From Rhodococcus sp. H36-A4 (lineage in GTDB: Bacteria; Actinomycetota; Actinomycetes; Mycobacteriales; Mycobacteriaceae), in assembly GCF_027158005.1 (NCBI RefSeq), contig NZ_JAPVLQ010000004.1:124001-188000 (forward strand): a stretch of DNA of 64,000 nt, given 5' to 3'. Made by a program: the position numbers and the translations under genes. Shown here one piece after another: positions 28,050 through 33,254 of the stretch (position 1 is its first letter; every line of letters starts with the position of its first letter). Below the pieces are notes generated by a model. It did not search any database, had not been told where the DNA came from, and saw only the letters and a program-made list of their open reading frames with translations.

Positions 28050-28697
28050 TCACTCTTGGCTGAGCTCGAAGCCCAACGATGCTGCCGCCCGCTGTGGTGA
28101 CGGATCGCGCCACAGTGCGCCGTAGACCTCGTTCGATGCCAGGGATCTGGTGACGGCCTTGTCGATATATACCGTGCCGTCGAGGTGATCGGTTTCATGC
28201 GCCACGATCCGTGCCGGCCACCCGCGAAAAATCTCGTCGATCTCCATTCCGTTCGAATCGACACATTCGAGCCGAACGGCAGCAGGACGCGAAACCACTG
28301 CTTGATACCCGGGGACCGACAGACACCCCTCGAAGAACGAGCGGCGAGCATCCCCGATAGCGGTGTAAGTAGGATTGACGACAACCCGAAACGGCAGCGG
28401 AGTGCGCTCGCGCGCCTCCGCCATCTCCGGGTCCACCTCGTACATGTCCTCGATCACCGCTATCCGCAGCGGAATACCGATCTGCGGAGCAGCCAATCCC
28501 ACGCCCGGCGCGTCATGCATCGTCGCCCGCATGACCTCGACGAGCAGCTCGAGTGTCCGGACCTCGAGCTGATCGATCAACGGCGCGGCCGGAGCCCGAA
28601 GCACAGGTTCGCCGACGACCACGATCTTCACGACGCCACCGCGAGCCGAAGAGAGAATCTCGCGGACAACGTCTTCCATCGATGGGGCTGCCGTCAT
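28050..28697 (-). CDS. def: Peptide deformylase
   Basis: 215 residues. Removes the formyl group from the N-terminal methionine of new proteins. All three motifs are present: [19 protein letters not shown] (metal-ligand Cys) and HETDHLDG (two metal His and the catalytic Glu). The start overlaps the ileS stop by 4 bp (ATGA), so def is probably translated with ileS. Confidence 0.96.
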
Positions 28698-31600
28698 CGC
28701 GCCCGGCTCACCAACGCGCGCACACCCTCGCCCATCTCGATCGCGTCCGGGCCCGGATCCCCATCGACCAAGGTAAGCGCAAGGACCTCACCCTTGATGA
28801 GTTCCCGGTGGGTGTCGAGCCAGTCGCGTCGATCAGCCGGTACCTCGACGACGATATCGATCCGATCCGACACCTCCAGCCCGAGGTTACGGCGCGCGTC
28901 CTGGAATTCGCGGATACGATCCTTCGCCCAACCCTCGGCTTCGAGTTCGGCTGTGACATTCGAGTCGAGCACGACGAGTCCAGCATTTCCGGGCAACGCA
29001 GCCGTCGAATCCGGTTCGGCAGCAACCAATTTGCGGGTGTATTCGGAGGGCAGCAGCTCGATCCCAGCCGCGCTGACAACTCCGTTGGCGTCCTCGGACC
29101 ATTCCCCGGCCTTGACGGCCTTGATGACCTTCTGAACGTCCTTACCGATGCGAGGACCTGCCGCACGAGCGTTGACCACAAGTTCGAACTTGCCGTGCAC
29201 AGCGACGTCGTCGGTCAGATCCACCTTCTTGACATTGACCTCGTCCGCGATGATGTCGGCGTATGGACGCAACCGCTCCGCGTTCTCGGCAGCGACGGTG
29301 ACCTCGGGCAGCGGCAAGCGCACTCGAAGATTCTGCGCCTTACGTAGACCGAGCACGGTGGAACAGATGGTTCGAACCTCGTCCATGGACTCGACGAGTT
29401 CGGGATCGGAAGGCAGCTCACCCGCGTCAGGCCAGTCCATCAGGTGCACCGAACGCCCGCCGGTAAGGCCACGCCAGACGACTTCACTGATCAACGGCAG
29501 AAGCGGCGCCGCGATCCGCGTCAGAACTTCCAGCACTGTGTGGAGTGTGTCGATCGCATCGACGTTCTCACTCCAGAACCTCGAACGCGAGCGTCGCACA
29601 TACCAATTGGTCAATGCATCACAGAACACGCGAAGCTCGTCGCACGCACCTGCGATGTCGTTTCCCTCCAACGCATCGGTGATCGCATCGCGAGTCGCAG
29701 CCAGCTTCGCAAGCACGTACCGATCGAGAACATGCGGCGAATCGGTACGCCACACGCCCGGCTTTTCCGCGTACAACTGCAAGAAGCTCCACGCGTTCCA
29801 GATCGGCAGCAAGGCCTGACGAACACCCTCGCGGATGCCCTGCTCGGTCACGACGAGATTTCCGCCTCGAAGGATCGGAGAAGACATCAGGAACCACCGC
29901 ATGGCGTCGGAACCGTCCCTGTCGAACACTTCCTTCACATCCGGATAGTTCCCCTTGGACTTGCTCATCTTCAAGCCGTCGTCGCCGAGGACAATCCCGT
30001 GTGCTGCAACGGTTTTGAAGGCCGGCCTATCGAACAGGGCCGTCGCCAACACATGCAGCGTGTAAAACCATCCACGCGTCTGACCGTTGTACTCGACGAT
30101 GAAATCGCCGGGGTTGTGAGTGGCGAACCACTCCTCGTTCTCGAACGGAAAGTGCACCTGCGCATACGGCATCGAACCGGACTCGAACCAGCAGTCCAAC
30201 ACCTCCGGAACACGACGCATGGTCGACTTGCCGGTTGGGTCATCGGGATTCGGCCGCGTCAGATCGTCGATGTAGGGACGATGAAGATCGGTCGGACGCA
30301 CACCGAAATCACGCTCTAGATCATCGAGGCTGCCATAGACGTCGAGTCTCGGGTACGCCGGATCGTCCGAGGTCCACACCGGAATAGGACTGCCCCAGTA
30401 GCGGTTTCGGCTGATGTTCCAGTCACGCGCACCCGCGAGCCACTTACCGAACTGCCCATCCTTGATATGTTCGGGGACCCACGTGATCTCCTGGTTCAAC
30501 TCGACCATGCGATCGCGGAACTTGGTCACCGCCACGAACCACGACGGAACCGCCATGTAGATGAGCGGCTGACCACTTCGCCAGCTATGCGGGTAGGAGT
30601 GCTCGATCGTCTCGTGACGCAGCAACCGTCCCGAGGCCTTCAGATCCTTGATGATGACGGGGTTCGCATCGAACACCATCAGGCCCTCGTACGGCGGCAC
30701 CATCGAGGTGAACTTTCCACCCGGATCGAGCGGTTGCACCACCTCGATACCGTTGGCCGTCGCCACGTCCATGTCCTCTTCACCGAATGCGGGCGCCAAG
30801 TGCACGATTCCGGTACCGGAATCGGTAGTCACGTAGTCGGCGGACAGTACGCGATGCGAGTTGGGATGTCCGATGAAGAAGTCGAAAGGAGGCGTGTACT
30901 TCAGCCCGACGAGATCGGCACCGGTGTGCTCGGACAACACCGTCGGGTTCTCCCCCAGCTCCCGAGCGTAATGAGCCACACGATCACGAGCGAGTACGAC
31001 GCGTCCACCTTCTCCGTCCTCGACCTGTACGTAGTCGATGTCCGGACGCACCGCCATCGCGAGATTCGACGGGATCGTCCACGGTGTCGTCGTCCAGATC
31101 AGTGCATCGGCGCCGTCGAGTGGCGAACCCGGCGCGGAGAGTGCCATTCGGACGGTGACGGCCGGATCCTGACGCATCTTGTATGCGTCGTCGAGGCGCG
31201 TCTCCTGGTTCGACAACGGTGTCTGCTCGTACCAGGAGTACGGAAGCACTCGGAAGCCCTGGTAGATCAGCCCCTTGTCATGGAGCGTCTTGAATGCCCA
31301 CATGACCGACTCCATGAAGTCCAGATCGAGGGTCTTGTAGTCGTTGTCGAAGTCGACCCAGCGAGCCTGACGGGTCACGTAGTCACGCCATTCGTCGGTG
31401 TACTGCAGGACCGACTGCTTGCAGTACGCGTTGAACTTCGCTAGACCCATCTCGTCGATCTCGGACTTGTCCTTGATCCCGAGTTGCTTCTCGGCTTCGA
31501 GTTCGGCCGGCAACCCATGACAGTCCCAGCCGAATCGCCGCTCGACCTTCATACCCCGCATCGTCTGGAAGCGAGGTACAAGATCCTTGACATATCCGGT

Positions 31601-31828
31601 CAGAAGATGGCCGTAGTGCGGCAGTCCGTTTGCGAACGGGGGGCCGTCGTAGAAGACGAATTCCTCGGCGCCTTCACGGTTGTCCACGCTGGCGCGGAAG
31701 GTTCCATCCGCAGCCCAGGCGTCGAGGACCTTCTTCTCGAGATCGGGGAACGATACGCTGCCGGCTTTCGAGCCGTAGATGTCGACGAGCGGGTAGGAAT
31801 CGCGTGTCGATGTGTAATCGTCGGTCAT
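28694..31828 (-). CDS. ileS: Isoleucyl-tRNA synthetase
   Basis: 1044 residues. Class I synthetase charging tRNA-Ile. The HIGH-type motif is in [15 protein letters not shown] and the KMSKS motif in [16 protein letters not shown]. The large CP1 editing domain contains [11 protein letters not shown] and [15 protein letters not shown]. The length matches the long actinobacterial IleS form. ATG at 31828 with GAGGAG 6 bp upstream; the ORF extension to 31921 lies within the T-box leader. Expression is probably controlled by tRNA-Ile charging through that leader. Confidence 0.97.
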
Positions 31829-32070
31829 GGTGACTCCTCGTGCCATCCGCTCGTACGAGCGGAACGTAGTCGGCACGGGGACGATGTCCGACGTGTCTTT
31901 ACGTCGGTACCGCGGTACCACCCCGTTTGCATCGGATTCGCCCGCAAGGGAAACGATCCGATGCCACTCACGCGGGCTGTGACGGGCCCACCCGTTCGGT
32001 TCTACTGAGCAAGCGCGTCAAAGGCTCACCGTTCTTCCGAAGACTCCCCGGTGATTGCCGGATCAACGCC
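31829..32070 (-). promoter_or_regulatory. Translational T-box riboswitch (ileS leader), ultrashort stem I type
   Basis: Read on the minus strand. The conserved T-box core GGGGTGGTACCGCGG is at 31924-31910. About 125 bases upstream, the small hairpin CCGG-CAATCA-CCGG (32061-32048) displays the isoleucine codon ATC (32055-32053) in its loop, as in the ultrashort stem I T-boxes of actinobacterial ileS. Nearer the gene, CCGTGCC can pair with GGCACG, which abuts the GAGGAG ribosome site, around a perfect 16-base hairpin (CCGCTCGT and its complement). Uncharged tRNA-Ile would open the ribosome site. The family is established; the pairings here were made by eye. Confidence 0.88.
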
Positions 32071-32114
32071 TGACTTCTTTCGATCGAACTTCCAGACCAG
32101 CTGGTGCTAGGGAA

Positions 32115-32303
32115 CTAATGCTTGGGCGGGGAGAGAGGATCGGGAGGAGACTTCCTACCGGCCAACGCGCCCACCAGCAACAGAACCGCACCCACTACAC
32201 ATACTCCGATACAGCCCCACGCCCAGATCACCGAGCCGGTCATCAAAGCGATGACCAGCAAGGCAAACCCCACTGCCGCCGCACACAGCGTCAGTACAAG
32301 CAC
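32115..32303 (-). CDS. Small two-helix membrane protein (Rv2144c-like)
   Basis: 62 residues: two hydrophobic helices (about residues 2-22 and 26-48) and a short basic, proline-rich tail. It sits just downstream of wag31, where mycobacteria carry the small membrane protein Rv2144c; homology is inferred from position and hydropathy. Function unknown. Confidence 0.62.
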   Translation of the reverse strand: MLVLTLCAAAVGFALLVIALMTGSVIWAWGCIGVCVVGAVLLLVGALAGRKSPPDPLSPPKH

Positions 32304-32387
32304 AACACACCTCGTTCCGGATGCGCCGGCAAGCGATCGTCAGATCCGGAGCGAGCCGTCGCGCGCCATGCGTGAAGCAAACAACCT

Positions 32388-33254
32388 CTAGTTGTTGCCT
32401 TTGGCGTACGACTGGCTGTAACCGGAGGACTGTCCCTCTTGGCTGAAGCCGTCCTTGCCATTGTCCACAGGTAAGGCCGAGGAGCGATTCTCCAACTCTT
32501 CGAGCTGCGACTCCAGGTACGACTTGAGACGGACCCGGTACTCGCGCTCGAACGTCTTGAGCTGCTCGATGCGACCTTCCAGCACAGACCGCTGCTCGTT
32601 GATCGTCGCCATGATCTCGGTGTGCTTGCGTTCGGCATCGGCCTGAAGTGCGTCGGCCTTCTCCTTCGCCTGCCTGAGCTGCGTCTCCGACCGTGTCTGT
32701 GCATCCGACAGTAGCGACTCGGATTTCTGACGAGCATCCGTGACCATTGCCTCCGAGCGCGTACGCGCATCGGTGACGAGGCGCTCGGCGTTGGTCCGCG
32801 CGTTGCCGAGCAACTGCTCCGACTCGGATTTGGCATCGCTCGTCAGACGATCTGCCATTTCCTGAGCGAGGCCCAGGATCTTGGCTGCCTGCATGTTGGA
32901 ATCGGCGCTCGGCGACGCAGCAACGGGAGCCGGAGCCGGGGCCACCACAGGTGCAGGCTTGGGAGGCTCGACCGGGCGTTGCGGCTCCGGAGTTCGCTGC
33001 GGCTCTGGCGCCTTCTGCTGAACGGGTGCAGATTGGCCGGGGCCGGATTGGCGCGCAGAGCTCTTGGAGTCGGACAGCTCCTGATCGAGCTCGCCCACTC
33101 GCTGGCGCAGATCAGCATTTTCTTCGATCAGTCGCGACAACTCTTGCTCGACGAGATCGAGGAATGCATCTACCTCGTCTTCGTTGTAGCCGCGCTTTCC
33201 GATCGGCGGCTTACTGAACGCGACATTGTGCACATCAGCTGGAGTCAGCGGCAT
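32388..33254 (-). CDS. wag31: DivIVA-family polar growth scaffold Wag31
   Basis: 288 residues. The N-terminal DivIVA domain ([21 protein letters not shown]) senses curved membrane; a Pro/Ala/Glu linker (about residues 75-115) separates it from a long coiled coil (residues 118-262) that oligomerises. Wag31 marks cell poles in Corynebacteriales and directs polar wall synthesis. The linker and tail ([18 protein letters not shown]) are variable parts. A TATAAC box at 33305-33300 may be its -10 element. Confidence 0.96.

Follow-up and report, generated by a model that had tools for sequence, protein, structure and literature searches.

A probable short-stem I T-box riboswitch acting on ileS translation in Rhodococcus sp. 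H36-A4

What controls the isoleucyl-tRNA synthetase gene ileS of Rhodococcus sp. H36-A4, and does this control extend to the gene that overlaps its end? The question is raised by a 64,000-nucleotide stretch of DNA (NZ_JAPVLQ010000004.1, positions 124,001 to 188,000), which is called the window here. The genes concerned are the following:

28694..31828, minus strand: ileS, isoleucyl-tRNA synthetase, 1044 aa (PF00133, PF08264, PF19302, and PF09334)
28050..28697, minus strand: def, peptide deformylase, 215 aa (PF01327)
32388-33254: DivIVA-like gene, beyond a small hydrophobic frame, on the far side from the leader

The ATG of ileS lies at 31828-31826 (minus strand). The genome contains a single full-length ileS match (four others are partial and 26-37% identical) and two deformylase matches, including the def behind ileS. 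Upstream of the leader, before the DivIVA-like gene, there is also a frame for a 62-aa hydrophobic protein with a GTG start (32115-32303).

We read the ileS leader (about 32075-31829, minus strand) as a T-box riboswitch that has a short stem I and acts on translation, with a probability of about 0.95. Sequence inspection of the leader found the T-box core GGGTGGTACCGCG, the universal core that an earlier note had claimed for this strand, and the Rfam T-box model RF00230 matched 32075-31874 over its full length (model positions 1-219, 49.0 bits, E 9.9e-10 with 601 bases searched). The same note had placed the element at 31829..32070; the T-box is indeed there, but its upstream edge has to be moved, as the Rfam match starts at 32075. 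Across the Rhodococcus genome, the leader was the sole RF00230 match at E <= 0.001 (E 1.9e-9). A default Rfam scan of the window, run at the gathering score of 93, listed nothing, because the leader scores 49 bits; since a scan by E-value detects the T-box, this blank reflects the cut-off. Although the model is matched end to end, most of its long stem I has no counterpart in the leader, where 74 model positions face 4 bases. We assigned the following parts to the leader:

32061..32048, minus strand: stem I specifier hairpin CCGG-CAATCA-CCGG, 14 bases, with the specifier ATC at 32055-32053
31991..32044, minus strand: stem II, with conserved columns, covarying pairs, and a putative S-turn-like AGTAGAA at 32006-32000
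31974..31995, minus strand: stem IIA/B region, GGGC 31989-31986 with GCCC 31977-31974, covarying pairs
31929..31964, minus strand: stem III hairpin GCATCGGAT...ATCCGATGC, from predicted folds, covarying pairs
31875..31926, minus strand: antisequestrator (ON), ACGGGG 31926-31921 with CCCCGT 31880-31875, from a forced-state fold
31920-31917, minus strand: T-box TGGT, putative partner of the tRNA-Ile ACCA end
31835..31881, minus strand: sequestrator (OFF), 31881-31871 with 31845-31835, covering GAGGA of the ribosome site
31847..31862, minus strand: perfect palindromic hairpin of 16 bases that caps the sequestrator and varies or is missing in relatives
31834..31839, minus strand: Shine-Dalgarno-like GAGGAG of ileS, 5 nt before the ATG

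To place these parts among relatives, we used a survey of 61 genomes (the genome itself and 60 relatives) and a set of named ileS loci, the best 80 of 587 confirmed stretches from a contig search. The 14-base hairpin with ATC in its loop, as described in the earlier note, is present in the window, where the hexanucleotide CAATCA, closed by CCGG/CCGG, is the apical loop on a short stem I. The pattern GG-N(1-3)-ATCACCGG occurs in the window and in 79 of the best 80 of 587 ileS loci, the remaining one (L095) being masked there. The base preceding ATC is C, A, G, or T among these best 80 of 587 loci, three of which have loops one base shorter, and two genomes (G004 and G028) carry ATCC where others have ATCA; ATC is thus the constant triplet. 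Other readings of the loop were rejected, CAA and AAT because the base before ATC varies and TCA because of the ATCC in G004 and G028, and an apparent ATCT loop among the leaders proved to be a spurious match of the search expression. With one mismatch allowed, the stem I pattern was found in 36 of the 61 genomes (backwards control pattern, 0). Of the 46 tRNA matches in the Rhodococcus genome, 30 had their loci scanned, and these include a tRNA-Ile with anticodon GAT, so that specifier, anticodon, and downstream gene agree. The tRNA-Ile(GAT) gene ends in discriminator A, which fits the TGGT of the T-box, and does not encode the CCA. Since the stem I arms and the T-box core are invariant, neither provides evidence from covariation.

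Covariation was instead found further along the leader, in an alignment of 37 leaders (the window and 36 of the best 80 of 587 named leaders, hand-picked and with mycobacteria thinned). RNAalifold predicted 32 pairs, 14 of which changed on both sides in at least one sequence: in stem II (columns 28-29 and 40-43), in stem IIA/B (columns 96-98), and in stem III (columns 147-151). AGTAGA is nearly invariant in this alignment, CCG and the A that follows it are invariant, and the window leader retains the invariant columns. We call AGTAGAA S-turn-like after the term used in PMC7778990 and PMC10651847, and its position in stem II is our own tentative assignment. On the model of the Nocardia farcinica ileS T-box, ACGGG (31995-31991) with CCCGT (31986-31982) would be a candidate for the other helix of a pseudoknot. 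Four rows of the alignment (L031, L032, L060, and L108) were cut at a spurious or early end, and the 3' side of the antisequestrator was left unused in it for this reason; we do not believe two of the RNAalifold pairings (columns 4-6/243-245 and 192-197/201-206). Folded as a single sequence, the whole leader did only modestly better than its shuffles (z -2.02), of which 11 of 200 were equally good. Its minimum-energy fold is without the stem I hairpin, which a slightly shorter leader draws, and the consensus stem II is missing from both folds.

The element that would decide whether ileS is translated is the pair of competing hairpins at the 3' end. Forced folds of the 104-nt switch region gave -41.7 kcal/mol for the antisequestrator and -44.6 kcal/mol for the sequestrator, about 3 kcal/mol apart, the latter being the free minimum of the region; its helix includes one C-A mismatch (31878/31838). 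The two are mutually exclusive in the predicted folds, with covariation. As the earlier note had proposed, the pairing would hide GAGGAG: when the 3' region was folded by itself, the GG within the ribosome site was paired at 0.998 in the window. Seven leaders have two candidate ribosome sites, and we therefore give both choices for the 81 leaders (the window and the best 80 of 587). The GG was mostly paired in 80 of 81 with the last site and in 79 of 81 with the first; L099 leaves its site unburied under either choice, and L092 is low only with the first. The pairing was also stronger between a leader's own strands (mean -13.7 kcal/mol) than between swapped strands (-12.3 kcal/mol) with the last site, and likewise with the first (-13.5 vs -12.1 kcal/mol), and none of 2000 strand-swap permutations was as low as the own pairs. 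Own pairing was better than the mean swap in only 52 (first site, 54) of the 81 leaders, because many leaders share identical strands. Start codons of relatives were set by rule, which two leaders failed (L065 and L102) and by which a third (L044) took a downstream start.

We scored the sequestrator helix on 49 sequences (the window and 48 of the best 80 of 587 named leaders, again hand-picked with mycobacteria thinned). Here, 90.7% of the cells were paired, compared with 84.5 +- 0.9 in shuffles and at most 58.2% at slid registers. The covariation score was 0.155, against 0.092 +- 0.012 in shuffles (reached by 0 of 500) and at most 0.056 at slid registers. Three pairs changed on both sides; 26 of 500 shuffles had as many, and two slid registers gave 4. 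This count does not stand out, and only the other four measures do. Together, these comparisons suggest that the sequestering helix covaries modestly. The earlier note had also considered the pairing to be built around the 16-base hairpin. A perfect hairpin is present, but it is a variable tip rather than the heart of the pairing: the fold runs from the sequestrator helix through a 7-nt bulge to the 16-base hairpin, which gains one extra U-A pair. At this position, several Nocardia leaders have different hairpins, and L033, L034, and L098 carry linkers of about 6 to 10 nt, which rules out the palindrome as a conserved functional part.

Termination of transcription is common among T-boxes of Class I and II (PMC10482949), and the leader might act in this way rather than on translation. 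We consider this very improbable, since the region 31800-32420 contains no terminator-like hairpin with a T run, and the competing hairpin ends on the ribosome site, with a helix that appears to covary. Our preferred reading is thus translational control, for which tRNA binding, the sensing of charging, and the direction of control would follow the known family. The anticodon of uncharged tRNA-Ile(GAU) would pair with AUC in the stem I hairpin loop, and stem II would reinforce this pairing. The free ACCA end of the tRNA would pair with UGGU in the antisequestrator bulge and hold the antisequestrator GGGG against CCCC, which would leave GAGGAG open and allow ileS to be translated. With charged tRNA-Ile, the antisequestrator would not be stabilized, the same CCCC stretch would pair with the ribosome site as part of the sequestrator, and translation of ileS would fall. 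Translation of def would probably be carried along by coupling through a 4-nt overlap, a lineage-specific addition.

In the genome survey, RF00230 matched 49 of the 61 genomes at E <= 0.001, and in none of the 61 did a match rise above the gathering score. Not all of these matches lie on ileS, and downstream genes were read only at plus-strand loci. Among the 12 genomes without a match, seven have the exact core GGGGTGGTACCGCG, at least one copy of which precedes an ileS-like frame in each of the seven (read by eye). One of them (G005) has an extra core (L148) that is not before an ileS-like frame and is probably a chance occurrence; the backwards control pattern also matches there. Neither an RF00230 match nor the exact core was found in G040, G041, G051, G058, and G060, and G040 has the stem I pattern despite this. 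All 37 genomes of the same genus have either a T-box match (33) or a core that precedes a frame resembling ileS (4). The best 80 of 587 loci come from Rhodococcus, Nocardia, Gordonia, Williamsia, Dietzia, mycobacteria, Pseudonocardia, Saccharothrix, and others, and all of them carry GGGTGGTACCGCG, 50-260 nt before the match start. The closest among the matches listed is a Rhodococcus sp. metagenome assembly (L031, 91% identity). Of five named ileS loci searched with RF00230, four matched at 31-49 bits and one (L100) gave no match at E 0.01. Given these scores and the count of 0 out of 61, a score under the gathering threshold is usual in the genomes and loci searched.

Three further loci were noted in the course of the survey. 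A T-box with the core TGGTGGCACCGCG (L007, G050:C1:6178256-6178494, same order) lies before an aspS-like frame, as read by eye. Its UGGC would presumably fit the G discriminator of tRNA-Asp. In G046, a genome that is 86% complete, two T-box cores with stem I hairpins lie 1.7 kb apart (L154 and L156, at G046:C11:11182 and 12902), one with an ATCA and one with an ATCC loop; reading by eye recognized no ileS-like frame behind the second core (L156). Downstream of ileS in Saccharothrix obliqua, there is a SAM-IV riboswitch (L100, 10593-10707, 98.7 bits).

A separate question is whether the leader is still in use, as it could be a decayed or unexpressed relic. The region 31800-32420 yielded neither a sigma-70-like promoter nor a terminator-like site. 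Of 81 leaders (the window and the best 80 of 587), 61 have a -10-like hexamer upstream of stem I, and two control stretches show one in 1 of 81 leaders each; the list of hexamers was picked after viewing the sequences, and the controls use the same list. In 41 of the 61, the hexamer sits 24-25 nt before CCGG. It is absent from the window leader and, among the leaders examined, also from L031, L032, and L100. Just upstream of stem I, at 32067-32089, the window has the sequence GTTCGATCGAAAGAAGTCAGGCG, which contains the 10-base palindrome TTCGATCGAA. Four of the seven same-genus loci examined (L006, L008, L009, and L011) share GTTCGATCGAAAGAAGTCAGGCG with the window before stem I, where other leaders carry the -10-like hexamer. 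The lack of a promoter-like site in the window and the Rfam score under gathering would fit a relic, but the shared GTTCGATCGAAAGAAGTCAGGCG and the columns invariant in the 37 aligned leaders, which are all intact in the window, speak against decay and leave this reading even less probable than termination. Overall, the leader contains the parts of a T-box, with conservation, several covarying helices, two competing predicted folds, and a cognate tRNA gene in the genome. The earlier suggestion of a compact actinobacterial ileS design is supported by the agreement between RF00230, the cognate tRNA, the conserved specifier, the competing pairings, and covariation, and the covariance search that the note had proposed gave its match, under gathering, with ATC in the specifier loop.

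We then turn to def. The overlap of the two genes pointed out in the earlier note is real: it consists of the 4 nt ATGA, with the def ATG starting at 28697 and the ileS stop ending at 28694. A T-box match is present in 33 same-genus genomes; in 30 of these, a deformylase match follows at a distance of 3243-3363 nt, on the same strand of the same contig, and three (G022, G035, and G036) have no deformylase match downstream. In the four genomes with a core only (G002, G005, G015, and G034), the single deformylase is on a different contig from the core before ileS, so that def lies behind ileS in 30 of the 37 same-genus genomes overall. The ileS stop falls within [AG]TGA in the window and in 20 fetched junctions, and the def-frame start codon lies inside the 4-nt overlap in 20 of these 21 sequences (in L165, the def reading soon stopped). 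Outside this group of genomes, we checked the best 80 of 587 loci, which were not sorted by genus, and found def behind ileS only in L031; the check used tblastn with the def of the window, which a very divergent def could escape, and the sequence behind ileS was 211 nt in L054 and under 900 in L058 and L090. In many of the best 80 of 587 loci, dinB lies directly or nearby behind ileS. From this gene order, def appears to have been inserted or retained between ileS and dinB in a single lineage.

The T-box may control ileS only, with def translated independently, for example because it has an internal promoter or a ribosome site to itself. We regard this as a real possibility, a little short of even odds: def is found in only one of the best 80 of 587 loci and a second def is present elsewhere in the genome, which puts def outside the conserved design, but nearly all junctions examined place the start codon of def within the overlap. 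A 4-nt overlap of start and stop is a common arrangement in coupled genes. Control of def by the ileS T-box through translational coupling is therefore plausible, from an overlap in one lineage, and we tentatively suggest, at odds somewhat lower still, that in the Rhodococcus-like lineage the T-box also governs how much of a second peptide deformylase is made in this way.

How does this leader relate to known systems? Seliverstov et al. (2005; PMC1262725) predicted ileS T-boxes with hairpins that sequester the Shine-Dalgarno site in several Actinobacteria, with Nocardia farcinica among the genomes. A review (PMC7583486) covers T-boxes that act on translation and have an ultrashort stem I, and names structures 6UFM, from N. 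farcinica, and 6UFG. Class III, which the N. farcinica ileS T-box represents, is defined as having a short stem I whose penta- or hexanucleotide apical loop holds the specifier (PMC10482949). PMC10651847 and PMC7778990 agree with this short-stem I ileS class, and the latter scanned actinobacterial reference genomes that may include relatives of this one. Like the T-boxes of Seliverstov et al., the leader has a hairpin that sequesters the ribosome site and no terminator; it comes from another species, and we saw no further difference of substance. It shares with the N. farcinica T-box the gene, a hexanucleotide apical loop that holds the specifier, stem II, stem IIA/B, stem III, and the antisequestrator, and its sequestrator matches the one proposed for Class III. 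In this comparison by description, what is local to the present leader is its palindromic tip and the def gene that follows ileS. In the open-licence literature, we found no paper that joins T-box, Rhodococcus, and ileS, and none among the matches listed that joins a T-box riboswitch with peptide deformylase.

In summary, the leader is an ordinary, conserved regulatory RNA for this bacterial group, and it adds one instance to a class that was predicted in 2005 and has a crystal structure solved in a neighbouring genus. What is new is limited to the lineage-specific def passenger and the miss at the Rfam gathering score. The latter is of practical relevance, as this score missed the window leader and those of all genomes in the survey. 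Only the def passenger would merit a small experiment. If def is indeed under T-box control, isoleucine starvation would alter the capacity for N-terminal deformylation.
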